A DNA stretch of 41,333 bases from a virus. Positions within the stretch are counted from its first letter, which is position 1, and each line of letters begins with the position of its first letter. The stretch spans positions 1-41,333 of the IMG/VR virus record IMGVR_UViG_3300030328_001105; one strand, given 5' to 3'. Both the position numbers and the translations under genes were made by a program. Below, piece after piece: positions 2,860-40,683 of the stretch. The notes beneath the pieces were generated by a model. The model searched no databases. It had not been told where the DNA came from and was given only the letters and a program-made list of their open reading frames with translations.

Positions 2860-3320
2860 AAAAGCTAGAGGCGTCAGATATTAAAGATCTGAAATTGCTG
2901 CAACATTACCGTATAATACGCAAATGGGCTTCCAAAAACAACAGCCTTCTTGAAGCAGATCTAGAATTGTTAATATATCTAGACTGCATTGATTTATTTA
3001 CAAAAAATGACTTTGAAAAAGGAGTATATTCTTATAGTTGGGATAATAGAAGATGGAGTAGATTAATAAAAGGCGAATGGATAAAAGTGTGGAGAAATAG
3101 AAATAGAACTACACAAAAATACAATATTTATCAAGTTTCTTTTAAAGGTAAACAACTTATTAATAGAATATACAAAATAATGCTAGGAAATGAAAAAATA
3201 CCCACAAGTATTAGAAGAAACAAAATAATGAAAGGTAATTCTTATATGAACAAGGTATTAACAAAAAGTATTCTAGAAGTAAATAAAGATATTATAAAAA
3301 ATAAAAATTATGAATCGTAA
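2856..3320 (+). CDS. Possible winged-helix (MarR-like) protein
   Basis: A 154-residue basic protein that starts in an ATGA overlap with groES. The N-terminal half is helical (LKLLQHYRIIRKWASKN, then ADLELLIYLDCIDLF). A Trp-rich segment follows (YSYSWDNRRWSRLIKGEWI), then RTTQKYNIYQVSFKGKQLI and NRIYKIMLGNEKIP. The pattern of helices, basic wing-like turn, and 'Y-x-V-S-x-K-G-K' strand resembles winged-helix domains in marine phage proteins sometimes labelled MarR-like. The C-terminal 40 residues are a lysine-rich tail. It could be a transcription regulator or a DNA-binding virion component. The fold is inferred by eye only. Confidence 0.5.
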   Translation: MKKLEASDIKDLKLLQHYRIIRKWASKNNSLLEADLELLIYLDCIDLFTKNDFEKGVYSYSWDNRRWSRLIKGEWIKVWRNRNRTTQKYNIYQVSFKGKQLINRIYKIMLGNEKIPTSIRRNKIMKGNSYMNKVLTKSILEVNKDIIKNKNYES

Positions 3321-9068: not shown

Positions 9069-9285
9069 TATTAGAAAAATTAGTATTGGTTCTGATTATA
9101 AAAATGATGCTATGCATTACTCTATAGGCCAACAAGTCTATGGAGGACATGAAATATCTCACATTCTTTTAGATGAATCAGACAAGTCTTATAATATACA
9201 TATAAAGAAAAACAATGAGGTGTTGCCTTGGAAGAAGTTTAATTCTAACATGGCAATATCTGTTGAGTATGATTTAGAGTATTAA
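9058..9285 (+). CDS. Small conserved Bacteroidota phage protein, GTG start
   Basis: A 75-residue protein beginning (M)ASNIRKISIGSDYKNDAMHY from a GTG codon. The N-terminal block and the ending WKKFNSNMAISVEYDLEY look like a conserved unit. I recall close relatives, with the same 'S-N-I-R-K-I-S-I-G-x-D-Y-K-N-D-A-M-H-Y' opening, upstream of terminase in marine Bacteroidota phages. That memory is why the GTG is preferred over the internal Met of DAMHY. The function is unknown. It overlaps both neighbours (11 bases upstream, 1 base downstream), so it belongs to a tightly coupled run leading into the terminase genes. Confidence 0.75.
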   Translation: MASNIRKISIGSDYKNDAMHYSIGQQVYGGHEISHILLDESDKSYNIHIKKNNEVLPWKKFNSNMAISVEYDLEY

Positions 9286-9890
9286 TGAAAAGTTTATACG
9301 ACTTCATAGTTAAACCTGTAGGAAAAGAATATGATAACACTATATTAATTGGTGATAAAAAAGTTATATTAAATACAAAAATTGAAAGTTTTAAATTTGT
9401 AAATAATATTGCAGAAGTAGTAAATACTCCAGCAGCTTTTAAAACACCTATAAAAAAAGGTGATTTAATAGTTATTCACCATAATGTGTTTAGAACTTTT
9501 TACGACATGCAGGGTAAAAAGAAAAAAAGTAGATCTTCTTTTATAGAAGGTTTATATTTTTGCTCTTTAGATCAAATTTATTTATATAAAAATAAAGACA
9601 AATGGTTGGCTTTTGGTGATAGATGTTTTATAAAACCTTTAAAATCAAAAAGCAAATTAAACGTTGAAAAAGAACAAAAACTTATAGGTATATTAAAAAT
9701 AGGTAATAGTTCCTTAGAAGCGCTAGAAATAAACGAGGGAGACTGTGTGGGATATACTCCATACGGGGAATATGATTTTATCATAGACAAAGAGCGTTTA
9801 TATTGTATGAAATCAAATGATATTGTTATAAAGTATGGAAGTAAAGAAAACCAAACAGAGTATAATCCAAGCTGGGCAAGTAGCGGTTAA
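9285..9890 (+). CDS. GroES-like fold phage protein
   Basis: A 201-residue protein starting in a TAATG overlap. Two successive blocks each look like a GroES beta barrel. The first block is DFIVKPVGKEYDN, then IAEVVNTPAAFKTPIKKGDL and VIHHNVFR. The second is DRCFIKPLKSK, then LIGILKIGNSSLEALEINEG and DCVGYTPYGEYDFIIDKERL. The pairing of 'F-I-V-K-P' with 'K-K-G-D-x-V-x-x-H' and 'F-I-K-P-L' with 'N-E-G-D-x-V-G' is the reason for this call. It ends YNPSWASSG. Related proteins in this genomic place are sometimes annotated as co-chaperonin GroES. It lacks an obvious mobile loop, so it may be a structural relative. It is distinct from the canonical groES at 2599. Confidence 0.6.
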   Translation: MKSLYDFIVKPVGKEYDNTILIGDKKVILNTKIESFKFVNNIAEVVNTPAAFKTPIKKGDLIVIHHNVFRTFYDMQGKKKKSRSSFIEGLYFCSLDQIYLYKNKDKWLAFGDRCFIKPLKSKSKLNVEKEQKLIGILKIGNSSLEALEINEGDCVGYTPYGEYDFIIDKERLYCMKSNDIVIKYGSKENQTEYNPSWASSG

Positions 9891-10110
9891 AGAGTTAATC
9901 AAAGTCGCTAAAGAACCAATTATTGAGTTTGGACCAGATATTTCCGCTGATAGATTAAAAAATGCAGCAGCAACTAAAAAGCTTGCTATATTTGATGCTT
10001 TTGAAATATTACAAAGAATACAAGAGGAAGAAGATATGTTAAATGATAAACCTAAAGAAGTTAAAGAAGAAAGAACTTTTAGAGGTTTTGCAGAAGGAAG
10101 ATCTAAGTAA
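9835..10110 (+). CDS. Probable terminase small subunit
   Basis: A 91-residue protein immediately upstream of, and overlapping, the large terminase by one base (TAATG). It has an N-terminal helix (SIIQAGQVAVKELIKVAKE) and a central helix (RLKNAAATKKLAIFDAFEIL) continuing into RIQEEEDML. It ends in a conserved-looking RTFRGFAEGRSK. The size, helical content and location fit the DNA-recognition subunit that starts packaging. No helix-turn-helix is obvious by eye, so position carries most of the weight. The start overlaps the preceding gene by 56 bases. The first usable ATG keeps the whole helical domain. Confidence 0.6.
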   Translation: MEVKKTKQSIIQAGQVAVKELIKVAKEPIIEFGPDISADRLKNAAATKKLAIFDAFEILQRIQEEEDMLNDKPKEVKEERTFRGFAEGRSK

Positions 10111-28389: not shown

Positions 28390-30003
28390 ATGGGATATAG
28401 AAATCAACCAATTATAGAAGACTTTTACGGTGTCAAAACATTTGCTGCATCGATGGGAAAAGGCGTTATAGATTTAGCTGCTGGTATAAGTGCTTTTACA
28501 GCTGCTAGAGAAGCGCAAAGAAAAATCGCAAAGAAAGAAAACGAAGAGTTTGGAAAACTAGTTGGTTCTGCTACTATTAGACAGAACGAAATATTCATGG
28601 GTTTAAAAGAAAAAGAATTCCCAGGGTTAGATCCAGATTTAATGACACAAGCTATATCAGAAATTGAAGCAGGAATGTATGGTCCTGATGGATCTATAGC
28701 TGCAGAAGCTGCTTTAAAAAGTGGTAAACTTAATCAAAAAGAAAGAAAAAAATATACAGATATACTTAATAACTGGAATTTAAAAGTAAATAATTTTACG
28801 ACAGATGCTGCTTTAATGTTAACTGATAAAGAAGATTATGGTAAAGCTATAAAAGATTTAGATAATTATTATTTTCAAGGGAGTAATCCTATGGAAAAAA
28901 ATGTTAGTTATCTTGCTGCTAGCACAGTATATGGTCACGCATTACCCGCTGGTGTAACATTAGTTAAAAGAAAAAAAGATGGGAGAAATGTTAGTTTTAC
29001 CTATAGTATTAAAAATAATAATCCCATATTTAAAGATTTAGTTGATTTTGAAAAATTAAAAGAAGATCCTAAAAATCCCGGTTTTAAACTTTTAACTTGG
29101 AATAGAGATTTAGCTACTTGGAATGGTAATTTTGTAGATAAAATAGGTATTGAAACTCCTGATTATAACAAAGAAGGTTTAGAATCAGGTGTATTACAAA
29201 AAAATAATAGAGGTGGATCTGAAATAGGACCTCAATTTCAACACATGCTACTGGGTAAGACAGAAGAAAACGACGATCAGATTGTTACAACTGTTGATAC
29301 ATGGGTTAATGTAGATGGGTTTAAAAAAGCAATGTCTCCTTTTACCGATATGCACGCGGCTGATATATGGGAAGAGTTAAAATTAAATGAAGAGTCTGCT
29401 CTGGCTTATTTATCAAAACATTTAGAAGCTTCAGGAGTAAATTGGATGCAACAATATGTTAATGGAACATTGACAAAGGAGGATATTGTGGGGGAATATA
29501 AAAAGCTTGTTGATGAAAACATGTTAAGTAAGTTTGGTTTAAGAGAGGGTGATGAAACTAATGGGTTGAAATTAGAGAAAAGAAAAATAACTCAAGATGA
29601 AATAGATCAATTAAAAGATGCTAAGGTTCCTGGTTCTGATCAATTAGTAGCTGATACTGATCAATATTTTTATAGAGATCAAAAATCGTCTAAAAATACT
29701 TCTAATGTTTCAGAAATTGCTTCTTATCGAGCTACTAATAGATCTAAATTAAATGATTCCTCATCTACAATGAATGTTATGGGACAAAAAAGTAGTATAG
29801 GGGCAACACCAAAAAGAATGATTAAATGGGATGCCGCTAACAAATCATGGGTTCCTTATGAATTTATAAGCGTAAGAACAAGTGGTGATGGAGTTTCTAC
29901 AAGTGGAACTGGTCAATGGAGAGCTGTACCTATGTCGGGTCCTGAGCTTGGTGGTATAAACGCTAAAGATAAGAAATCTTTTAGCACGTGGTTAGGTTAT
30001 TAA
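28390..30003 (+). CDS. Probable internal virion (cargo) protein
   Basis: A 537-residue protein with no recognisable enzymatic motif. An N-terminal hydrophobic/Ala-rich segment (SMGKGVIDLAAGISAFTAAR) is followed by charged helices. Later blocks include GPQFQHMLLGKTEENDD and MHAADIWEELKLNEESALAY. The C-terminal 100 residues are Ser/Thr/Lys-rich and probably flexible. It starts two bases after the preceding stop, in AAATTATG context, and precedes the giant gene. This order (ejection-type, middle, giant) is what I would expect of virion cargo proteins packaged with DNA. A tail-associated role is the alternative. Confidence 0.6.
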   Translation: MGYRNQPIIEDFYGVKTFAASMGKGVIDLAAGISAFTAAREAQRKIAKKENEEFGKLVGSATIRQNEIFMGLKEKEFPGLDPDLMTQAISEIEAGMYGPDGSIAAEAALKSGKLNQKERKKYTDILNNWNLKVNNFTTDAALMLTDKEDYGKAIKDLDNYYFQGSNPMEKNVSYLAASTVYGHALPAGVTLVKRKKDGRNVSFTYSIKNNNPIFKDLVDFEKLKEDPKNPGFKLLTWNRDLATWNGNFVDKIGIETPDYNKEGLESGVLQKNNRGGSEIGPQFQHMLLGKTEENDDQIVTTVDTWVNVDGFKKAMSPFTDMHAADIWEELKLNEESALAYLSKHLEASGVNWMQQYVNGTLTKEDIVGEYKKLVDENMLSKFGLREGDETNGLKLEKRKITQDEIDQLKDAKVPGSDQLVADTDQYFYRDQKSSKNTSNVSEIASYRATNRSKLNDSSSTMNVMGQKSSIGATPKRMIKWDAANKSWVPYEFISVRTSGDGVSTSGTGQWRAVPMSGPELGGINAKDKKSFSTWLGY

Positions 30004-30020: not shown

Positions 30021-33000
30021 ATGAAATATATAGATCCAAATACAGGTAGAGAATACACTGAAGAGGAATTACTAGAATTAGCTGGTGATATGCCTTTGCA
30101 AGATTATATTGCTGAAAAAGGATACACGCAATTAATAGAAGAAGTTAAACCAGTTGTAGCAGAACAACCGGATTTTCAAACAGCCACTGCAAGCGAGGGT
30201 GCAGATGTAGTGGCGGACATACCGGAAGCACCCGAGAATACGGCTTTAGATTTGGAAAATATTTCTTTGGAATCAGCTACAGAGAGTTATCTTGCGGCAA
30301 CGGAAGATCCTGCGTATCAAATGCTAAAGCAAGCTGAAAAAGAATTAAAAGATTTTAATGAAGGTATAGATTATAATTGGGGTCCTAGTAAAAAAGATTT
30401 AGCACAAAGAAAAAAATTAGAAAACGAAGTTGAAGCGCAAAGAAGAAAACTAGCTGGATCAAAAATAGATTTTGATGTACCTGAAACTTGGGTATCTAAA
30501 TCTCAATCTGAGGTTATTAAAGCTCTTAGAAGAGAATTTCCGGGTATTGTATTTGAAGAAACTGGAGCTCAAATTTTAGGTAATTTTGGTAATGCAATAA
30601 CAGCTAATTTAGGAGGTGAAGAAATAGAACTTGATTTAGTTGATTGGGGTAATGCTTCTGAAAAAGAAAAAAAGGAATTAGTAGAAAATTTCAAAAAAAT
30701 TGAGAGTTGGGATCAAGTTACAAAAGCTAATGATATAGCTTTACAAGGAGCTTTTTCTGGTATAATGGATCCTATTAAAGATGGTATAATACCTGCAGAT
30801 GAATTTAACAAAGCTATAAAAGATTCAGGTTACCAACTAGTAAAAGCTCAAGGAGCAGCGTTTGCTTACGATCTTATAAAAGATGGAAAGATTGTTGCGT
30901 CAACTTATGAAGATGCGGGTTATGCGCCTAGAGGAGTTAAAACTATTGTTGATGGTGATGGTATAGAAAATTATATTAGAGAGAATTTTACAAAAGAAGA
31001 AGCTTTAAAAGCTAAATCAGTGCTTTATCCTTATTTAAAAACTTTCGCAGAAGAAAAACAAGTTAAAGTTGATAAAAATATAGCGGCTTTAAATAAAAAA
31101 TTCGAAGACAATCCTGAGGAGTTTTATAAACAAGATATTTGGGATACACAGCTTCAAAATTATCTTGAAAATTTAGCTACACAAGGAGCTATACAAAAAG
31201 AAGAAATACCTGTAATTTTAGAACAAATTAAGAACAATATTAATGTAAATTCATCGTTAGATAAAATAGCTAAAGGTTTAGTTGGCCCAGAAGGTGAAAC
31301 TGGTTTTAATAGTTACACTGAATATTTAATGTCTTGGCATGGAAACAATGAAACTTCTTTAGGTATTTCACAGCAAGCTGATGCTGAAAAATATGCTGTT
31401 CAAATATTAAGAGATGCTATAAATCTTGAGCTTGATTTTGAAGACCCTTATAATCCAGCCGCTAGTTTTAATGATACACAAAAAGCACTATTAAACGCAG
31501 CGTTAGATCAACATTTACTTTACAATTTAGAAGATAGAATTGCAAGAGAAAACGAGACAATAGCTGAACAGATATTGTATGATAAACCTGCTAAAGAAAG
31601 AGAACTTATTAGACTAAGTTTAATGATGGAGCAGGTAGAACCAGATGCTATTAGAGATGAATTAAAAAAAGACGGTGAGTTAATTAAAAATTATAATAAT
31701 ACTATAACTGATATTACATTAGGCGAATTTGAAAGGGTCCATAATAATATAAAAAGTATTCCAGGTTTAGGATTAGAGTATAATATAGATCTTGGTGAGC
31801 AAAAAGATTTTTTTGGAGAAAGTATACTTCCTACTTTTAGAATAACAAGATTACCAGATCCTGAAGAGATTACTGAAGAAGATTATAAAAAATTATTACA
31901 AGCAGAGTCAGATTTATATAAATTAAATCTTACTTTAAATAATCTACGTGAAGACTATATCACTAGTGTTGGAAATTATGTAAATAATTTAACAGAATTA
32001 GAGGTATCGGTAGGTGAAAGATCAATAGTAAAAGAAACTAAAGATGGTAAAAAACAGGTTATAGATGTATTAGGTCTTTGGGACGACATCAATAAGGAAT
32101 ATGATTTACCTGATTTATTAGCTGATGATTTCGGAAACGCATCATCTAGAATAATATTATCTGTACCCACATTGTTTGGTAGTGAAGGAGCAATGTTAAA
32201 AGAACAAAGTATTGCTGGAAAAGAATTGAATATGATGTCTATGGGTACTTATGATGATCCAACAGGTGGTGGTTGGACATGGGGATTAAGAACTTTTAGT
32301 ACTCAATCACCAAATATATTATTAGCAATTGGTACTGGTGCTACAGGTAATGCGTTAACAAAAAGTAGTGGTATAGTAAAAACAGCTATTGGTACTACAT
32401 TTGGTATTACATCGGGTACAGATTCATATAGAAGATTAACTATACAAAGGGATTTGTTAGAAGATGCTAAGAAGCAAAAAGAAATGCTTCAAAACGCTTG
32501 GAATGAAGGTATGGTTAATACATTCGAATATACGCAGGGTATGCTAGATGCTGAGAAAGCTATAGCAATGTATGATATGAGTAATGATCAGATATTTGGA
32601 GCTTCTCTTTCTACTGGTATTATAGAGGGAACAGTTACTAGATACATTGGTACGTCTAATAATACAATGAAATTCTTAGGTGATATTAAAGGTTTAGGAC
32701 CTATTAATGTTGTAGATGTATTGTTTAAAAGCGGTTGGAGACAAACCGGTATGTACGGATTAGAATGGACTAAAAGGGTTGGTTTAGAAGTATTAGAAGA
32801 AGAAATAATATATGCAGGTACTCAAGGTATAAGTGAAAGTTTAATACTAGAAAGAGATGCTGATTGGAGTCAATTTGATGACACGGCTATGGTTACTTTA
32901 GTAACAGCTGGTGTTTCTAATGGTACAGGAGTTGGTATATCTGGTATAAAAAATTATTATGCTGGTAAAAAGTTTATGACAGAGGTTAATGAAGCTTCAC

Positions 33001-36000
33001 AGGGAATTGTAGAAGCTATGACAGCTTTGTCAGCAGATCCAGCAAGAGCTGATGAATTAACTGCTTTGATTCAAGAGGAATTGAAAAAGATGAGTTTAGC
33101 TGATAGTTCTTTAGGTGCTGATATATTAGCTAGTGGTGCAGAAAATGTGGCTAAGCTAGTAGGTTTAGAGATAGAGAAAAGAAGACAGTTAGAAGAAGCT
33201 GGTGTAACCCCAGATATGAATGAGCAACAAAAAGCTGATCAAATAAAAAAATATAAAGAAGAAAATTTAACTACTGAAGAAGCAAAAAGGTTTGATGAAA
33301 GAGCTAATAGTATTGAATCACAAATAAATTCTATAAAAGAAGGCGAAAAGAATTATGATAAAGCTGAAGAATTATTAGGGGGAGCTGGAAGAGAAGCTAA
33401 AAATAGATTAAATGAAGCTGATGAGTCATGGAATGCTAACATGAGTAAAAGAGAAGAGGTTGGTAGACTTATAGAGGAGATACATCGTATGACTACGGAG
33501 ATGTATATAAACAAGGCTAAACAAGATCCTAATAATGAAAAAGAATGGAATAGATTACAAGAGGAAAATAAAAAATTAAATTTTGGTAGAGAAGGTTTTC
33601 CATATCATGGTCCATTAACAGAAAAAGGAATAAAAGACAAGTGGCTTGAGCAAAGAGGTAAACATGATATGATAATGTCGGCTGGTATAGTTACTCTTAT
33701 GACTGATGTTGAAACTAATCTAAGGAGATTAATGGGTCAGGATATTACTAGAAATTTAGAAGTTATAGTAATACCAGAAATAGAAGATCAACAAGCTTAT
33801 TTAGCAAAACTTGCTACACAAGGTCTTATTGATGAAAAATCTATACCAGAGATGATGAAGGGTATAGCGCAAAACGGTAATGGTTTTATTGTTGGTAATA
33901 AATATATTGTAACTACAGAAGAACAAAGACAAGACGCAATAGATAATAGAAATTATAGAAAAGGTGTTGTTCTTTATCATGAGTTTGGTCATGCTGTAGA
34001 TGATTCTTATTTTAGAAATGAAGAAGAGAGAAATGTTTATGCTATTAATTTGTATAAAGGATTAGCTAAAAGTTATCCAGAAGTACACATAAAAGCTAAA
34101 GAAATCGTAGACCTTGCACATCCTGAAGATGCAGGGAAAGCTTGGGAAGATACTAGTCAAAAATACAAAGATGAATATGTTAGAGAAGCTCAAACCGTTG
34201 CTTATATATTTGCTCAAAAAGACAAATCATATAAAGCAATAGAAGATTCTTATAAAGAAGGTTTATATTCTAAAATTAAAAATAGAATTTTTGATCAAGC
34301 TATTAACACTGAGAAACGTGCTTTAAGTTACATGTTTGGTAATAACGCTGCTTTTAGAGGAGGTGAAATGACTGCTAAAGTTGGTAAAAGATTAGGTCAA
34401 AAAGGTATTGGATCTGAAAAATATAATAAAGACACAGGAATAAAAAATTCTAAAGAAATAGCTGATAATCTTAATAAAAAATATAAAGATTTAAAAAATT
34501 ATAAACCTATTACAGGAAAAGAAGTAGAAACTATGGTAAGCAAAGTTGCTTCAAGAGCTTTTAGTAGGTTTGGATTAGGAGTTCCTTTTAATATAAGACA
34601 AGCTTATTACGATAAAGCTAGATTTATAAGTCATGCAAAAAGTAAATTACAGGAAATTGCTACTCAATGGAATCCAACGTTGGGTGCGTTTGATAGTTTT
34701 ATGGCTAATAGAGGTATGCAAAGAGCAAATAAGTTTGTTTCTGAATTAGGTGTACCAGATTCTAGAATTAAAACTGAAAGAGCTGATGAAGCAAAATTAG
34801 ACACAAGAACATCTAAAGTAACTACAGAAGGCGAATTAAAAGAAAGAGCAAAAAGAGAAGCAAAAGAAGAGACTCCTCCTTTAACTGATAGATTAATAGG
34901 GAAAAGAAAAAAAGAAGCTTTAGAAAAAGTTGGACAACGTTTATTAAAAGAAATAGGATATAAATTACCTGTATATAATGTAGATAAAACTGTTAAACAA
35001 AAAACAAATTTTATAAGTCAATTAAGTAAAAATCTCCAACTTGGTTTTAAAGATATGATTGATTTTATGGGTGCTAGAAATAAAACAGTAGATGAATATG
35101 ATCAATGGTTAACTGATAACTACACTACTCTTCTTGGACCAAATGGATTAACAACAACATACTTAGCTAAGGCTTTTCCTGAAGCAGTAGAAAAATACGT
35201 AAATGGTATGGGTTGGGTTAGATATGCTGATTGGAAAGGTAGAACTAAAGGTTCTAAACCGGGGCAAATTGATTTCTATAAATCTACTGACGAGGGTCCA
35301 TTAGCTGGAAGTACAGCTGGAAACCAAAAAATACGTAGAGTAAAAGATATAAAAAATACAATACCTTTAGCAAAGTTTAAATCTAAGTACATTAAGTTAA
35401 GTACTAATGCAAAAGGCGAACAAGTATTAAAAATACCTCAAATGCCAACTGAAGGATTAGCTAAACAGTTAGTTCAAGAGATGGGATTAGATATTTTTAG
35501 AAAAGAAATTAGTAAAGAAACTAGTGAAATAAAGGATAAATTTTTAGAAAGACAAAAGTTATTTGGTGCTGATGTATTAGATAATTATGTAGAACAGTTA
35601 ATATATGATGTTGAAAGGCCTGGAATTAAAAATAGTTTAGCTTTAATTTCTCAAGATGAAAAGAAAATTACAGCTTGGTTTGAAAAGCGATTTGATTTTT
35701 ATAAAGAATTACAAAACCTTATGCAGTCAGATGATTATATACTAGCGTCTGCTTCTAAACAAAAAACAATGTTAAAGAATGCTCACAAGGCGGTGTATGG
35801 TGATATATTTACTAAAGATGAACACGAAGGCGTTGCTACTCAATTTGATAGACTTTTAGTAAACTTAAAGAAAGATCCATTTGTGTTTAGAAGATTAACT
35901 AATGAGTTGTCTTATGATGAGTACATGGATCTTATAGTAACATCTGCAAGTAAAGCAGATGATCTTCAGTCAATTAGAAATTATACTGATGCTACAAAAG

Positions 36001-39000
36001 CTGTTGGTGATTTACTTGGTGATAAAGTTGTAATGCAAGCAGCAAGGGATTTTATTGTAACTAATTTTTATAAAAAATTAAAAAATAAATATGGTCATCG
36101 TGATGCATTAGATATGATGGTTGCTTTTGGAGCATCTACCTTTAGTAATGGTTCTTATAAATTTGGTGCGTTTAAAGTAGATGAAAACGGTGCTCTTGTA
36201 GAACATGGAACGTCTAGCAATAGAGCTGCTATACTTGGTAATCAAGATGATATTTTAAGAATTATACAAAAAATAGATCCTAATGTTGTAAGTATACAAG
36301 ATAAGGTTATTATATTTAAAGAACCTGTTACATGGACAGATACTGTAATTGAAGAGGGAGAGGTTAAAAAGAAAAAAATTACTGGTACAAGTAGAAAAGT
36401 AAATATAAATACCAGTGCAGATGTAAAAGCTAGTCACTTAAAAGATAATGTTAATTATGCGAATGAAAAATTCACTGCAAATATGGCGTGGAATTTTACA
36501 GTAACATTATTAGAGAGTTTAAAAAGTGAGGATGCTAATATGCAGGCATTAATACTTGGTGTTGCTAATGGTTCAGCTAATAGTTCGCTAAGACTTGCTG
36601 CTCCAGTTTGGGGTAGATCTACAGTATTACCAAATGGTACAAACCTAAGAATAGATGTAAAAGATGAAAAAGGTAATCAAGTATACAAAACAGAAATAAA
36701 AGAAGTAATAGATAAAGATGGAAATGTTAAGGAAGTAAAAGTATTTAAACGTGATAAGAAAGGTAATAAAATTAAAGAAACAGAACCAGCTTATCGATAC
36801 GAACATGCTGTTCCTGCTAGGGTAGTTCTATATTTAATGTACCAAAATATAATTAAAGGAGATAAAAGAATAAATTTAGATTTATTAAAAGATGATTATA
36901 GAGTAACTATAATTCCAATTAAAGAAATGGATAATATACTAAGTGATCAAGGTTTTACTAAATCTATGTTAGCTGGGTATATACCTGGAAAACAAGAATG
37001 GTGGAAAAGATATTATAATATATTTACGAAAGGTAGAATACCATTTGCTTTACAATCTTATGAAGATTCAGATAATAAAATAGGTGTAGAATTTGAAAAT
37101 TATTATAACACTATAAACAAGAGCGTTGTTAAAGCTGATTCTCAATTAACTATAGACTTTGATAACAATGCGGATATAGCGATGTCAAATGCTAGAGATT
37201 CTAACAAATACTCTCAAGATGTAAAGAAAATTAGAATATTTGATTTTGATGATACATTAGCTAGAACCAAAAGCAAAGTTATTGTTAATATGCCTTATGG
37301 CCTTCCAATGACAAAGGAGATGTTAGCAGAAGCTGAAAGGTTAGTAGGTAAACCAATACCTGGAAAGCCTTATGATAATATAGTTAATAATCCTTCAGGT
37401 GATCTTTCTAATTTAAAAGGAGTATCACAGATACAGTTTATGGCTAGTAACCTGCTTGATAGATATGACCTAGAAACAGCTAAACAAGAAGTTGCTAAAA
37501 AATATGGTAAAACATTTAAAATTACTGCAACAGAATTTGCTAGAGATTCTGCAAAGTTAGAAGCTGAAGGTGCTACTTTTGATTTTACAGAATTCAGTAA
37601 AGTTATTGATGGTAAAAAAGGACCATTATTTAAAGTTGCTAAAACAATACAGGATAAAAGAGGGTCTGAAGATATATTTGTTTTAACAGCTAGACCTCAA
37701 GATGCTGCGAAACCTATACAAGAGTTTTTAGCTTCTATGGGTTTAAATATACCTTTAGAAAATATAACTGGTTTAGAAGATGGTAGTCCAAAAGCTAAAG
37801 CTGATTGGGTTATTAACAAATACGCGGAAGGTTATAATGATTTTTATTTTACTGATGATGCTTTTAAAAATGTTAAAGCTGTTAAAGATGTGTTTGATGT
37901 ATTAGATGTTAAATCTAAAGTTCAACAAGCTAGAGTTAAGTTTAGTCAAGATTTAAACATTGAGTTTAATGAAATGATTGAACGAAATAAAGGTATAAAA
38001 AAAGACGCAAGATATTCTCAAGTAGTAGCTCAAAGACTAGGTAAAAACAAAAAGAAATACCAATTCTTTATACCTCCTTCAGCAGATGATTTTGAAGGAT
38101 TAACATCATACATGTTTGCGGGTAGAGGTAAGCAAGGTGAAGCTGACCAAGCTTGGTTTGAAAAAGCTTTAATACTTCCATATGTAAGAGGTGTAGCCGC
38201 TATAGAGAGAGCTAAACAACAAGTTTCTAGTGATTACTCTACATTACAAGCTGGTTTTCCTAAAATAAGGAAAAAATTAAATAAGAAAATACCTGGTGAA
38301 CAATATACTTATGATGAAGCTGTTAGGGTTTACTTGTGGAATAAAGCAGAATATGTAATACCTGGAATTAGTAAAAGAGATCAAGCTAAACTAGATAAAA
38401 TAGTACGAGAAGATCCTGATTTACAATCATTTGCTGATGGGGTATTATTAATCACCAAACAACCATTATACACACCTCCTCAAAGACATTGGCAGGGTAC
38501 AACAATTACTGGAGATTTAAATTCATTAACTACAAATATTAATAGACAGAAATATTTAAAAGAATTTATTGATAATGTAGATGTAATATTTAGTGAGGAA
38601 AATTTAACTAAAGTAGAAGCTATTTATGGAACTAGAGTTAGAGAATCTTTAGAGAATATTATTACTAGAATGAAAACTGGTAGTAATAGGGTGAGTGGAG
38701 GAAAATATGATAGACAAGTAAACTTGTGGAATGATTGGGTGAATAGATCTGTTGGTGCTATTATGTTTATAAATAGAAGATCTGGTTTACTACAGTTAAT
38801 ATCTACAATAAACTTTATAAACTGGAGTGATAACAATCCTATTAAAGCAGGTGAAGCATTCTTTAATCAGCCGCAATTTTGGAAAGACGTAGTATTTATA
38901 TTTAATTCTGCTAAATTAAAACAAAGAAGATCAGGTTTAAAAGGTGATATAAATGAGCAGGAAATTGCAGCTGCAGTAAAAGGAAGTACAGATAAAATGT

Positions 39001-40235
39001 CTGCTTTTGTAGCTTGGTTGCTTAAAAAAGGTTTTATATTTACTCAAATAGCAGATAGTATAGCAATATCTACAGGTGGTGCTACTTTTTATAGAAATAG
39101 AATAAATACATATAAAAAGCAAGGTTACAGTACAAAAGATGCGGAAGCAATGGCTTGGGAGGATTTTTCTAGAATTTCAGATAAATCACAACAGTCAGCA
39201 GATCCAATGATGATTTCGCAACAACAAGCTGGTGTGCTTGGTAGGTTTATATTAAATTTCCAAAATACACCAATGCAGTATACTAGATTAATGAAAAAGG
39301 CTGGATTAGATATAATTAATAATAGAGGTGATTTAACAACCAATATTTCTAAAATATTATATTATGGTATGGTTCAAAACTTTATATTTACAGCTCTTTC
39401 AAACGCGTTGTTTGCTTTAATACCTGGGTTTGATGATCCAGATGATGAAGAGCTTACAGAAGAAGAGCAAATAGAAAAGTATGGGAAAGTATTAGTATAT
39501 AAGCAAGAGAAAATAATCCACGGTATGTTAGATACTATTTTAAGAGGATCTGGTGTAGCAGGTGCAGTAATAGCTACAATTAAGAACACTTATAGAAGAT
39601 ATGTTTTTGAGGAAGGTAAGGGTTATAATGCAGATCACGCGTACACTTTGATTGAAGCTTCTAATTTATCTCCAGTATTAGGATCTAAGCTTAGAAAAAT
39701 ATATGCTGCTATAATGACTAAAAAGTTTGAAAAAGATGTAATAGCAGAAAGAGGGTATGATGTTACTATAAACGGTAGATTTCAATTAAGTCCTTCTTAT
39801 GATGTAGCAGGTCAATTAGCTTCAGGTTTATTAAATATACCAATGGATAGATTAGTAGCAGAAATAAATGCTGTTACAGAAATGTTAGATTCAAGAAATA
39901 CAATTTATCAAAAATTAGCTTTAGGTATGGGCTGGAGAACATGGGATGTTAATGCGAAAATTGAAGAGCATGACCTTATTAAAGCTGAAGGTAAAGAAAG
40001 AAGGAAAAAAGAAGGTATAGAAAAAGCAAAGAAAACTAGAGCTGAAACTAATAGAAAAAAGAAAGCAGCTAAGAAAAAAGAAAAAGAAATAGAAGAGAGA
40101 AGAAGAGCTTCATTATCATATGAAGAAAGAGAAAGAGAAGATAGATTAAAAGATAGCTTACAAAATGTAAAAATAAATAAACAAATTGAAGAAGCTTTCA
40201 AAAAATTAGATAGTTTATATGGAACCGATTTCTAA
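30021..40235 (+). CDS. Giant multidomain (polyvalent-type) protein, probably virion-packaged
   Basis: 3404 residues, one quarter of the window. Domains in order: an acidic N-terminus (1-80); a helical region containing SEVIKALRREFPGIVFEETG (about 164-183); a Gly-rich hydrophobic stretch (~763-805, NILLAIGTGATGNALTK) that could be membrane-active; a zinc-peptidase motif YHEFGHAVDD (His1320-Glu1321, His1324, with candidate Glu1385/1389); long Lys/Glu helices; a HAD phosphatase-like domain (Asp2408-x-Asp2410-x-Thr2412 in FDFDDTLART, Thr2556 in LTARP, Asp2612-Asp2613 in FTDDAF); and a C-terminal module (from ~2690) with WQGTTITGDLNSLTTNINRQ, a hydrophobic segment near 3111-3136 and a Lys/Glu/Arg-rich tail. 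This mix matches the 'polyvalent protein' concept: enzymes delivered with phage DNA to counter host defences. It overlaps the M15 peptidase gene by 17 bases. Confidence 0.8.
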   Translation: MKYIDPNTGREYTEEELLELAGDMPLQDYIAEKGYTQLIEEVKPVVAEQPDFQTATASEGADVVADIPEAPENTALDLENISLESATESYLAATEDPAYQMLKQAEKELKDFNEGIDYNWGPSKKDLAQRKKLENEVEAQRRKLAGSKIDFDVPETWVSKSQSEVIKALRREFPGIVFEETGAQILGNFGNAITANLGGEEIELDLVDWGNASEKEKKELVENFKKIESWDQVTKANDIALQGAFSGIMDPIKDGIIPADEFNKAIKDSGYQLVKAQGAAFAYDLIKDGKIVASTYEDAGYAPRGVKTIVDGDGIENYIRENFTKEEALKAKSVLYPYLKTFAEEKQVKVDKNIAALNKKFEDNPEEFYKQDIWDTQLQNYLENLATQGAIQKEEIPVILEQIKNNINVNSSLDKIAKGLVGPEGETGFNSYTEYLMSWHGNNETSLGISQQADAEKYAVQILRDAINLELDFEDPYNPAASFNDTQKALLNAALDQHLLYNLEDRIARENETIAEQILYDKPAKERELIRLSLMMEQVEPDAIRDELKKDGELIKNYNNTITDITLGEFERVHNNIKSIPGLGLEYNIDLGEQKDFFGESILPTFRITRLPDPEEITEEDYKKLLQAESDLYKLNLTLNNLREDYITSVGNYVNNLTELEVSVGERSIVKETKDGKKQVIDVLGLWDDINKEYDLPDLLADDFGNASSRIILSVPTLFGSEGAMLKEQSIAGKELNMMSMGTYDDPTGGGWTWGLRTFSTQSPNILLAIGTGATGNALTKSSGIVKTAIGTTFGITSGTDSYRRLTIQRDLLEDAKKQKEMLQNAWNEGMVNTFEYTQGMLDAEKAIAMYDMSNDQIFGASLSTGIIEGTVTRYIGTSNNTMKFLGDIKGLGPINVVDVLFKSGWRQTGMYGLEWTKRVGLEVLEEEIIYAGTQGISESLILERDADWSQFDDTAMVTLVTAGVSNGTGVGISGIKNYYAGKKFMTEVNEASQGIVEAMTALSADPARADELTALIQEELKKMSLADSSLGADILASGAENVAKLVGLEIEKRRQLEEAGVTPDMNEQQKADQIKKYKEENLTTEEAKRFDERANSIESQINSIKEGEKNYDKAEELLGGAGREAKNRLNEADESWNANMSKREEVGRLIEEIHRMTTEMYINKAKQDPNNEKEWNRLQEENKKLNFGREGFPYHGPLTEKGIKDKWLEQRGKHDMIMSAGIVTLMTDVETNLRRLMGQDITRNLEVIVIPEIEDQQAYLAKLATQGLIDEKSIPEMMKGIAQNGNGFIVGNKYIVTTEEQRQDAIDNRNYRKGVVLYHEFGHAVDDSYFRNEEERNVYAINLYKGLAKSYPEVHIKAKEIVDLAHPEDAGKAWEDTSQKYKDEYVREAQTVAYIFAQKDKSYKAIEDSYKEGLYSKIKNRIFDQAINTEKRALSYMFGNNAAFRGGEMTAKVGKRLGQKGIGSEKYNKDTGIKNSKEIADNLNKKYKDLKNYKPITGKEVETMVSKVASRAFSRFGLGVPFNIRQAYYDKARFISHAKSKLQEIATQWNPTLGAFDSFMANRGMQRANKFVSELGVPDSRIKTERADEAKLDTRTSKVTTEGELKERAKREAKEETPPLTDRLIGKRKKEALEKVGQRLLKEIGYKLPVYNVDKTVKQKTNFISQLSKNLQLGFKDMIDFMGARNKTVDEYDQWLTDNYTTLLGPNGLTTTYLAKAFPEAVEKYVNGMGWVRYADWKGRTKGSKPGQIDFYKSTDEGPLAGSTAGNQKIRRVKDIKNTIPLAKFKSKYIKLSTNAKGEQVLKIPQMPTEGLAKQLVQEMGLDIFRKEISKETSEIKDKFLERQKLFGADVLDNYVEQLIYDVERPGIKNSLALISQDEKKITAWFEKRFDFYKELQNLMQSDDYILASASKQKTMLKNAHKAVYGDIFTKDEHEGVATQFDRLLVNLKKDPFVFRRLTNELSYDEYMDLIVTSASKADDLQSIRNYTDATKAVGDLLGDKVVMQAARDFIVTNFYKKLKNKYGHRDALDMMVAFGASTFSNGSYKFGAFKVDENGALVEHGTSSNRAAILGNQDDILRIIQKIDPNVVSIQDKVIIFKEPVTWTDTVIEEGEVKKKKITGTSRKVNINTSADVKASHLKDNVNYANEKFTANMAWNFTVTLLESLKSEDANMQALILGVANGSANSSLRLAAPVWGRSTVLPNGTNLRIDVKDEKGNQVYKTEIKEVIDKDGNVKEVKVFKRDKKGNKIKETEPAYRYEHAVPARVVLYLMYQNIIKGDKRINLDLLKDDYRVTIIPIKEMDNILSDQGFTKSMLAGYIPGKQEWWKRYYNIFTKGRIPFALQSYEDSDNKIGVEFENYYNTINKSVVKADSQLTIDFDNNADIAMSNARDSNKYSQDVKKIRIFDFDDTLARTKSKVIVNMPYGLPMTKEMLAEAERLVGKPIPGKPYDNIVNNPSGDLSNLKGVSQIQFMASNLLDRYDLETAKQEVAKKYGKTFKITATEFARDSAKLEAEGATFDFTEFSKVIDGKKGPLFKVAKTIQDKRGSEDIFVLTARPQDAAKPIQEFLASMGLNIPLENITGLEDGSPKAKADWVINKYAEGYNDFYFTDDAFKNVKAVKDVFDVLDVKSKVQQARVKFSQDLNIEFNEMIERNKGIKKDARYSQVVAQRLGKNKKKYQFFIPPSADDFEGLTSYMFAGRGKQGEADQAWFEKALILPYVRGVAAIERAKQQVSSDYSTLQAGFPKIRKKLNKKIPGEQYTYDEAVRVYLWNKAEYVIPGISKRDQAKLDKIVREDPDLQSFADGVLLITKQPLYTPPQRHWQGTTITGDLNSLTTNINRQKYLKEFIDNVDVIFSEENLTKVEAIYGTRVRESLENIITRMKTGSNRVSGGKYDRQVNLWNDWVNRSVGAIMFINRRSGLLQLISTINFINWSDNNPIKAGEAFFNQPQFWKDVVFIFNSAKLKQRRSGLKGDINEQEIAAAVKGSTDKMSAFVAWLLKKGFIFTQIADSIAISTGGATFYRNRINTYKKQGYSTKDAEAMAWEDFSRISDKSQQSADPMMISQQQAGVLGRFILNFQNTPMQYTRLMKKAGLDIINNRGDLTTNISKILYYGMVQNFIFTALSNALFALIPGFDDPDDEELTEEEQIEKYGKVLVYKQEKIIHGMLDTILRGSGVAGAVIATIKNTYRRYVFEEGKGYNADHAYTLIEASNLSPVLGSKLRKIYAAIMTKKFEKDVIAERGYDVTINGRFQLSPSYDVAGQLASGLLNIPMDRLVAEINAVTEMLDSRNTIYQKLALGMGWRTWDVNAKIEEHDLIKAEGKERRKKEGIEKAKKTRAETNRKKKAAKKKEKEIEERRRASLSYEEREREDRLKDSLQNVKINKQIEEAFKKLDSLYGTDF

Positions 40236-40683
40236 AAACATTACATACGCCGAGGCAATACATTCGCAAACCGCGAAAAGAAGGTGTATAGATAACACAC
40301 CTAATCCTACACAGGTAGAAAACATGAAAGTGTTAGCTGAGAAAGTATTTGAACCATTAAGAGAATGGGTTGGTGGACCTATAAAAGTTAATTCGTTTTT
40401 TCGTTCGCCAGAGCTTAATGAAAAAATTGGTGGGTCTAAAACCTCACAGCATTGTAAAGGTCAAGCAATTGATATAGATGATGTTTATGGATTTAAAACT
40501 AACGCTGAAATGTATAATTGGATTAAAGAAAATTTAGATTTTGATCAAATGATCTGGGAGTTTGGTACGGATATGAATCCAAACTGGGTACATATATCAT
40601 ACGTATCAGAAGAAGATAACAGAAATAGATGTCTAAAAGCTTATAAAGACGAATACAATAAAACAAAATATAAAACAATATAA
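40219..40683 (+). CDS. M15 family peptidase, probable endolysin
   Basis: A 154-residue zinc peptidase with the Ser-x-His-x-x-Gly-x-Ala-x-Asp signature: Ser76, His78, Gly81, Ala83 and Asp85 (SQHCKGQAIDID), and the third ligand His125 in WVHIS. The preceding FFRSPELNEKIGGSKTS is also typical of the M15_3 (peptidoglycan D-Ala-D-Ala or L-Ala-D-Glu type) group. It cuts peptidoglycan peptides at the end of infection. No signal peptide is present, so it needs a holin such as the 8291 product. The ATG lies inside the end of the giant gene (17-base overlap). A tail-associated entry lysin is a less likely alternative. Confidence 0.88.
   Translation: MEPISKNITYAEAIHSQTAKRRCIDNTPNPTQVENMKVLAEKVFEPLREWVGGPIKVNSFFRSPELNEKIGGSKTSQHCKGQAIDIDDVYGFKTNAEMYNWIKENLDFDQMIWEFGTDMNPNWVHISYVSEEDNRNRCLKAYKDEYNKTKYKTI

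Follow-up and report, generated by a model that had tools for sequence, protein, structure and literature searches.

A probable giant ejection protein of a marine podovirus with zincin-like and HAD-type domains

Giant ejection proteins and polyvalent proteins of phages

The giant virion RNA polymerase of the Schitoviridae, gp50 of phage N4, is a protein of about 3500 residues that ends the cassette gp52-gp51-gp50 and contains no cysteine. In its reported structure an HExxH domain precedes a large helical domain for which no structural relatives are known, and the same paper names gp51 and gp52 as the partner ejection proteins (PMC12633501). Size and synteny are the usual means of matching ejection proteins of the gp50 type (PMC8954989). 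In T7 and in P22, gp16 comes third among three adjoining ejection proteins and is the largest; it is likewise free of cysteine and has weakly hydrophobic segments. The polyvalent proteins (Iyer et al. 2017, PMC5512222) are very long, multidomain proteins with a zincin hub and helical parts of unknown function. Their metallopeptidase core is built of three strands, an N-terminal helix and two C-terminal helices, and exchange around a constant chassis has been described for them (PMC5512222). The same paper contains neither the word 'haloacid' nor 'phosphatase', and a HAD phosphatase is not mentioned in it.

The window analysed here is a whole viral sequence record of 41,333 bases, and one of its genes encodes a protein of 3404 residues, P0001, that can be compared with each of these systems. 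Like N4 gp50, P0001 has a length of this order, ends a cassette, lacks cysteine and carries an HExxH domain ahead of a large all-helical C-terminal domain. The gene order 258-537-3404 (in residues) parallels T7 gp14-15-16 and N4 gp52-51-50. Unlike gp50, P0001 contains no RNA polymerase motif and has a slot for a HAD or another enzyme instead. Since neither this motif nor any sequence similarity to N4 gp50 was detected, P0001 is regarded as gp50-like in delivery and not as a virion RNA polymerase. It differs from gp16 of T7 and P22 in being two to five times longer and in its additional zincin and HAD domains, and no lytic transglycosylase was found in it.

P0001 resembles the polyvalent proteins in its length and its multidomain build, with at least two enzymatic domains in one chain around a zincin hub, as judged by conserved motifs only, and with helical parts beside them. 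The ART-like domains of some P0001 relatives also resemble the content of polyvalent proteins, whereas the PNK/zeta-type kinase of other relatives differs from the protein-kinase type found there (PMC5512222). No curated polyvalent domain (LPD, ART-PolyVal) gave a sequence match in P0001 (Pfam). As the link runs through architecture and fold comparison only, P0001 is said to work like a polyvalent protein and is not a proven member of the class. An earlier note on this DNA had proposed an undescribed entry or anti-defence device. The word 'undescribed' holds only in part, since the architecture fits two classes already on record, the giant ejection proteins of podoviruses and the polyvalent proteins of phages; entry is well supported and an anti-defence role is plausible.

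The gene, its family and its cultured relatives

P0001 is encoded in one unbroken frame, with a computed mass of 384.7 kDa and a pI of 5.5:

30021 to 40235, plus strand: P0001, probable giant ejection protein, 3404 residues, no cysteine (open reading frame, full-length relatives, cysteine count)

Full-length relatives from IMG/VR align with P0001 from the first to the last residue at an overall identity of 48-74%. In the comparison with the nearest relative, L001, there are 660, 435 and 1068 substitutions at codon positions 1, 2 and 3, respectively (3275 codons), and this excess at the third position indicates a selected protein. By its frame and these alignments, the gene is intact and its family conserved. 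Neither Pfam nor PHROGs gave a significant family match, and a sequence-profile search of the PDB returned chance matches only, such as designed miniproteins for the peptidase profile. The earlier observation that long stretches of the protein match nothing that can be named is therefore true for Pfam, PHROGs and PDB sequences, yet no module of the family is better conserved than residues 2640-3404, which cover one such stretch.

The gene is the last and largest of three adjacent genes and lies downstream of the portal, capsid and tail genes. A scan of IMG/VR with the C-terminal module (residues 2640-3404) found at least 573 stretches that encode it. The loci retained are the best 80 of a longer list, are biased towards members like P0001, and were counted without correction for relatedness. 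Across these loci the upstream order is a tail protein, a protein of about 440-680 residues, often one of about 137, one of about 240, one of about 350-600 and then the giant, which occupies the position of the third ejection protein throughout the loci inspected. In the loci among the matches listed the giants measure about 2200-3400 residues; in the members aligned the N-terminal half is variable, and identity to P0001 over the C-terminal module is 39-84%. Two giants, those of L034 (4207-12205) and L021 (7574-14036), are split by frame changes for which sequencing error and decay are indistinguishable; the break in L034 lies inside the HAD domain just past motif I.

Searches of named phages by tblastn with residues 1-2493 and with the C-terminal module gave no match, so cultured relatives were reached only through synteny and profiles. 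The genes for portal and terminase and those of the capsid region have clear relatives in the Flavobacterium elemo phages, in Manatee Spring phage MW202828 and in Cellulophaga phage phi38:1. All of these have a large gene at the place of P0001, labelled structural in elemo and phi38:1; for the 'structural protein' of phi38:1 the notes of the record cite similarity only. A profile made from 17 diverse family members matched phi38:1 gp101 with E 1e-21 and elemo gp72 with E 6e-13 (database size Z = 1e5) and found nothing significant among reversed decoys. Both gp101 (1691 residues) and gp72 (3757 residues) share with P0001 the syntenic position, the absence of cysteine and homology over the N-terminal and Gly-rich regions; unlike P0001, they have no HAD domain and no match to the C-terminal module. 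Phage phi38:1 retains only about the N-terminal half of the giant in the profile comparison, and its gp101 is absent from a list of methylated virion proteins. Most likely, the phage that encodes P0001 is a marine podovirus with structural genes like those of flavobacterial phages.

The C-terminal module was also found on contigs (L117-L124) binned with Alphaproteobacteria, Aliivibrio, Woesearchaeota, Caldiserica and Cryomorphaceae MAGs, which are probably misbinned phage contigs. As such contigs, from mixed metagenome bins, are the only ones on which the genome scan finds the module, the scan gives no indication of the host. Elsewhere in the window, a GroEL homologue (1068-2615) is 37-38% identical to the GroEL proteins of MW202828 and phi38:1, the open reading frame next to it (2599-2859) matches the chaperonin-10 of MW202828, and a larger, separate GroES-like gene (9285-9890) precedes the terminase gene. 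An endolysin gene with the appearance of an M15-type peptidase (40219-40683) overlaps the end of the P0001 gene by 17 bases at its start.

The cysteine-free trio

Two smaller genes precede that of P0001:

27610 to 28386, plus strand: putative first ejection protein, 258 residues, no cysteine, at the position of T7 gp14, P22 gp7 and N4 gp52 (position, profile, hydrophobicity)
28390 to 30003, plus strand: putative second ejection protein, 537 residues, no cysteine, at the position of T7 gp15 and N4 gp51 (position, cysteine count)

The 258-residue protein has a hydrophobic N-terminus rich in glycine and alanine (Kyte-Doolittle mean of 1.69 at residues 3-21) and matches phi38:1 gp99 by profile (E 4.5e-5); the 537-residue protein gave no family match. 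The three proteins together contain no cysteine in 4199 residues, about 21 being expected from the rest of the window. The Fisher p values for this depletion, 8e-8 against the rest of the window and 3e-5 against the other virion genes, are descriptive, since homologous sequences are not independent. The trios of elemo, phi38:1 and phi19:3 are also devoid of cysteine. Among the matches listed, which were filtered only for identical C-terminal stretches, 63 of the 76 family giants have no cysteine, and the maximum is 4. Per 1000 residues, the family has 0.17 cysteines in the giant, 0.29 and 0.06 in the two genes upstream of it and 13.2 in the downstream genes.

The signature was derived and checked on seven characterised podophages, T7, P22, N4, SP6, P-SSP7, phiKMV and epsilon15 (L110-L116), the ejection proteins of the last four having been chosen by annotation and position. 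Their ejection proteins contain 7 cysteines in 17,623 residues against 178 in 23,837 residues of the other virion and packaging proteins, or 0.40 against 7.47 per 1000 residues (p 6e-34, again descriptive). Cysteine is completely absent from N4 gp50, gp51 and gp52 (3500, 644 and 150 residues), P22 gp7, gp20 and gp16, T7 gp15 and gp16, SP6 gp35-37 and phiKMV gp35-37. T7 gp14 and the first protein of P-SSP7 have one each, and the pattern is less clean in epsilon15, where gp14-17 together have five. The reason is likely to be that such proteins cross the oxidising periplasm unfolded, and would do so without forming disulphides. No account of ejection proteins avoiding cysteine turned up in the literature searched, which does not mean that there is none. 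Near-absence of cysteine is possibly a general marker of ejected proteins.

As the trio is cysteine-free in the same way as characterised ejection proteins, P0001 reads as the third, giant ejection protein. Its identification as the third and largest ejection, or internal virion, protein of a marine podovirus is given a probability of about 0.78. Delivery together with the DNA, suggested earlier from the neighbouring genes, is now well supported by the cysteine-free trio in ejection-gene order, the podovirus synteny and the distant homology to phi38:1 gp101 and elemo gp72.

The zincin-like domain

The middle of P0001 contains a putative peptidase:

33738 to 34220, plus strand: zincin-like metallopeptidase core, residues ~1240-1400 (conservation; predicted strands, HExxH helix and Glu helix)
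33978 to 33992, plus strand: HEFGH, residues 1320-1324 (motif, conservation)
34185 to 34187, plus strand: E1389, in the next helix, a candidate for the third zinc ligand (alignment column E180, prediction)

The HEFGH motif, already reported in the earlier note, is confirmed within the single 3404-residue frame and is conserved among the relatives. Of 75 non-redundant giants among the matches listed, 70 have HExxH. The motif is conserved among domains that share only 12-64% identity. In an alignment of 15 sequences (A5), H1320, E1321 and H1324 are invariant and E1389, 65 residues past H1324, is nearly so. The predicted order of elements, with three strands, the HExxH helix and the helix of E1389, agrees at moderate confidence with the metallopeptidase core of polyvalent proteins. 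The structural model of the domain has a low mean pLDDT of 63, its Foldseek search of the PDB gave no significant match and no zincin, and the profile matched M48 weakly (E 0.34). Without a zincin from Foldseek, the assignment stands as motif-level evidence, and the conservation of the motif supports a zincin-like metallopeptidase at residues ~1240-1400. HExxH is present in elemo gp72 and missing from phi38:1 gp101. Five giants of about 2180-2340 residues (L078, L082, L084, L103 and L024) have neither HExxH nor HAD and form a natural test group for a core role free of enzymes.

The HAD domain and the exchangeable slot

A second putative enzyme adjoins the C-terminal module directly on its N-terminal side:

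37227 to 37940, plus strand: HAD-type phosphatase domain in the exchangeable slot, residues ~2403-2640 (motifs, conservation, profiles)
37296 to 37502, plus strand: insertion inside the HAD domain, residues ~2426-2494 (alignment; absent from L001-L006)

The location of a HAD domain at residues 2408-2613, as first noted, is borne out, and its four motifs (DxDxT, S/T, K and DD) are all present in P0001. All 54 intact HAD copies among the matches listed have D2408, D2410 and T2412 (motif I), T2556, K2593, D2612 and D2613, and this complete retention speaks for an active enzyme. The profiles matched only weakly: E was 0.016, below the cut-off, with Pfam Hydrolase, and 5.5e-5 over a partial stretch with phrog_415, 'polynucleotide kinase', a match that bears on a possible likeness to the phosphatase domain of a polynucleotide kinase 3'-phosphatase (T4 PseT-like). 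A model of the HAD domain and C-terminal module (mean pLDDT 61, pTM 0.34) shows alternating strands and helices in the HAD part. Foldseek found no significant match for it in the PDB, with HAD phosphatases among the weak matches (probability 0.10-0.25). For peptidase and HAD alike, motif conservation thus favours the earlier assignments, but structure prediction did not yield a confident fold.

These motifs bear on a further explanation, that P0001 is an ordinary long structural protein of the tail or tape-measure type in which the enzyme motifs are decayed or coincidental. The missing curated family match and the poor fold predictions are compatible with such a protein, whereas the HAD catalytic residues intact in 54 of 54 listed copies, the HExxH retained in highly divergent domains and the cysteine present in the adjacent tail gene (1725 residues) speak against it, which makes it the least probable of the explanations considered.

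The slot occupied by the HAD domain in P0001 holds a P-loop kinase in L052 and L067 (best matches AAA_33 1e-14, Zeta_toxin 1e-11 and phrog_505, polynucleotide kinase, 7e-12) and an ART-like domain in L063 (ART-PolyVal E 0.003, 18.7 bits against a curated cut-off of 31.2). In L074, L065, L056 and L019 a sequence that is ART-like by eye, with no significant profile match, is nested in the HAD domain between motif I and the cap. The insertion of about 69 residues in P0001 sits at the same site; by eye it does not look ART-like. By these comparisons the payload slot before the C-terminal module is exchangeable, its predicted occupants being phosphatases of the HAD type, kinases of the polynucleotide/zeta type and ART-like domains. 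Among the matches listed the HAD domain is absent from 20 giants, about a quarter, and as HExxH is missing in 5 of 75, the core role depends on neither activity. L054 contains a HAD remnant (9095-10003) that has lost motif I and kept the stretch around motifs III-IV, apparently a decaying payload.

A search of BFVD with the model of the HAD domain and C-terminal module found four family members, one of them named UDP-N-acetylglucosamine kinase, and phage proteins named ART-PolyVal or polyvalent-associated/LPD at 10-14% identity; since the model is of low confidence, the polyvalent matches are supportive only. Together with the swapping of HAD, PNK/zeta-like kinase and ART-like domains in the slot, and with the proposal that polyvalent proteins are early-phase effectors processed by their zincin (PMC5512222), these Foldseek matches would suit a P0001 that is mainly an injected polyvalent effector of anti-defence or host takeover, riding with the DNA and taking no structural part in the ejection channel. 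This is judged unlikely, because many relatives keep the core without any slot enzyme, phi38:1 keeps just about the N-terminal half, the position of the third ejection protein is constant, and PADLOC found nothing in P0001, neither defence nor counter-defence homology.

Other regions of P0001

Three further conserved regions were recognised:

32283 to 32975, plus strand: conserved region rich in glycine and weakly hydrophobic, containing the motifs IIEGxxT and QxxSE, residues ~755-985 (alignment, hydropathy)
34458 to 34955, plus strand: conserved W/FDP...F..[FY] module, residues 1480-1645 (conservation; resemblance to sigma-70 region 2 weak and unproven)
37938 to 40232, plus strand: all-helical C-terminal module, residues 2640-3404, most conserved part of the family (alignment, IMG/VR scan, model)

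The Gly-rich region is the part of P0001 best shared with phi38:1 gp101. The best Kyte-Doolittle means over 19 residues are 1.17 (958-976), 1.18 (2993-3011), 1.47 (within 3115-3139) and 1.34 (3169-3187); the membrane-like segments of the earlier note thus exist, but their hydrophobicity is marginal and there are more than the two it had counted.

The module at 1480-1645, which has counterparts in L102 (7046-7633) and L063 (6470-6970), raises the question of whether P0001 starts phage transcription in place of the N4 virion RNA polymerase, for instance by acting in a sigma-like manner on the host RNA polymerase. N4 gp50 matches P0001 in size class, position and cysteine-free state, the module of one relative has a sub-threshold sigma70 match (TIGR02937, E 0.02), and hhalign aligns the motif with sigma region 2. 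The hhalign probability, however, is just 5%, and 0.3% with the P0001 alignment; the module profile gives no match in 53 of 75 relatives among the matches listed; and motif B of single-subunit RNA polymerases, present in N4 gp50, is missing in P0001, which has no Pfam match. A role in transcription is accordingly considered very improbable. P0001 as an RNA polymerase was rejected on the missing motif B and the lack of a match to N4 gp50, and residues 1480-1645 as a sigma factor, with one sub-threshold match and an hhalign probability of at most 5%, are a weak lead at most.

Proposed mechanism

As the third ejection protein, P0001 would be packed in the head together with its partners of 258 and 537 residues. 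After binding of the phage it would be threaded through the narrow tail, unfolded or loosely folded, and would refold in the envelope and cytoplasm after passage. The 258- and 537-residue proteins may build the trans-envelope channel, and two parts of P0001, its Gly-rich region (755-985) and its helical C-terminal module, would probably serve as inner-membrane anchor and DNA guide. The zincin-like domain most likely cuts the delivered polypeptide itself and so would free its parts. The HAD domain would then be an enzymatic payload set free at or into the cytoplasm; as a first guess, it would be a phosphatase with nucleic-acid ends or nucleotides as substrates. More tentatively, the family may constitute a cysteine-free injection chassis with one swappable payload enzyme (HAD, PNK-zeta or ART, sometimes nested), which would be freed by the zincin and would repair nucleic-acid ends or modify host targets at the onset of infection as a counter-defence.

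Significance

Neither Pfam nor PHROGs has a name for the gene family, which is present in hundreds of marine phage genomes. Should the proposed reading prove true, podophages beyond the N4 group eject giant multi-enzyme proteins in which other enzymes replace the RNA polymerase, and the exchangeable slot would provide a list of early effectors for testing one by one. In the seven podophages, the cysteine signature told ejection proteins apart from the other virion proteins, although sequence similarity among the ejection proteins is mostly lost. A cysteine-free signature could therefore help to find delivered proteins in uncultured phages.
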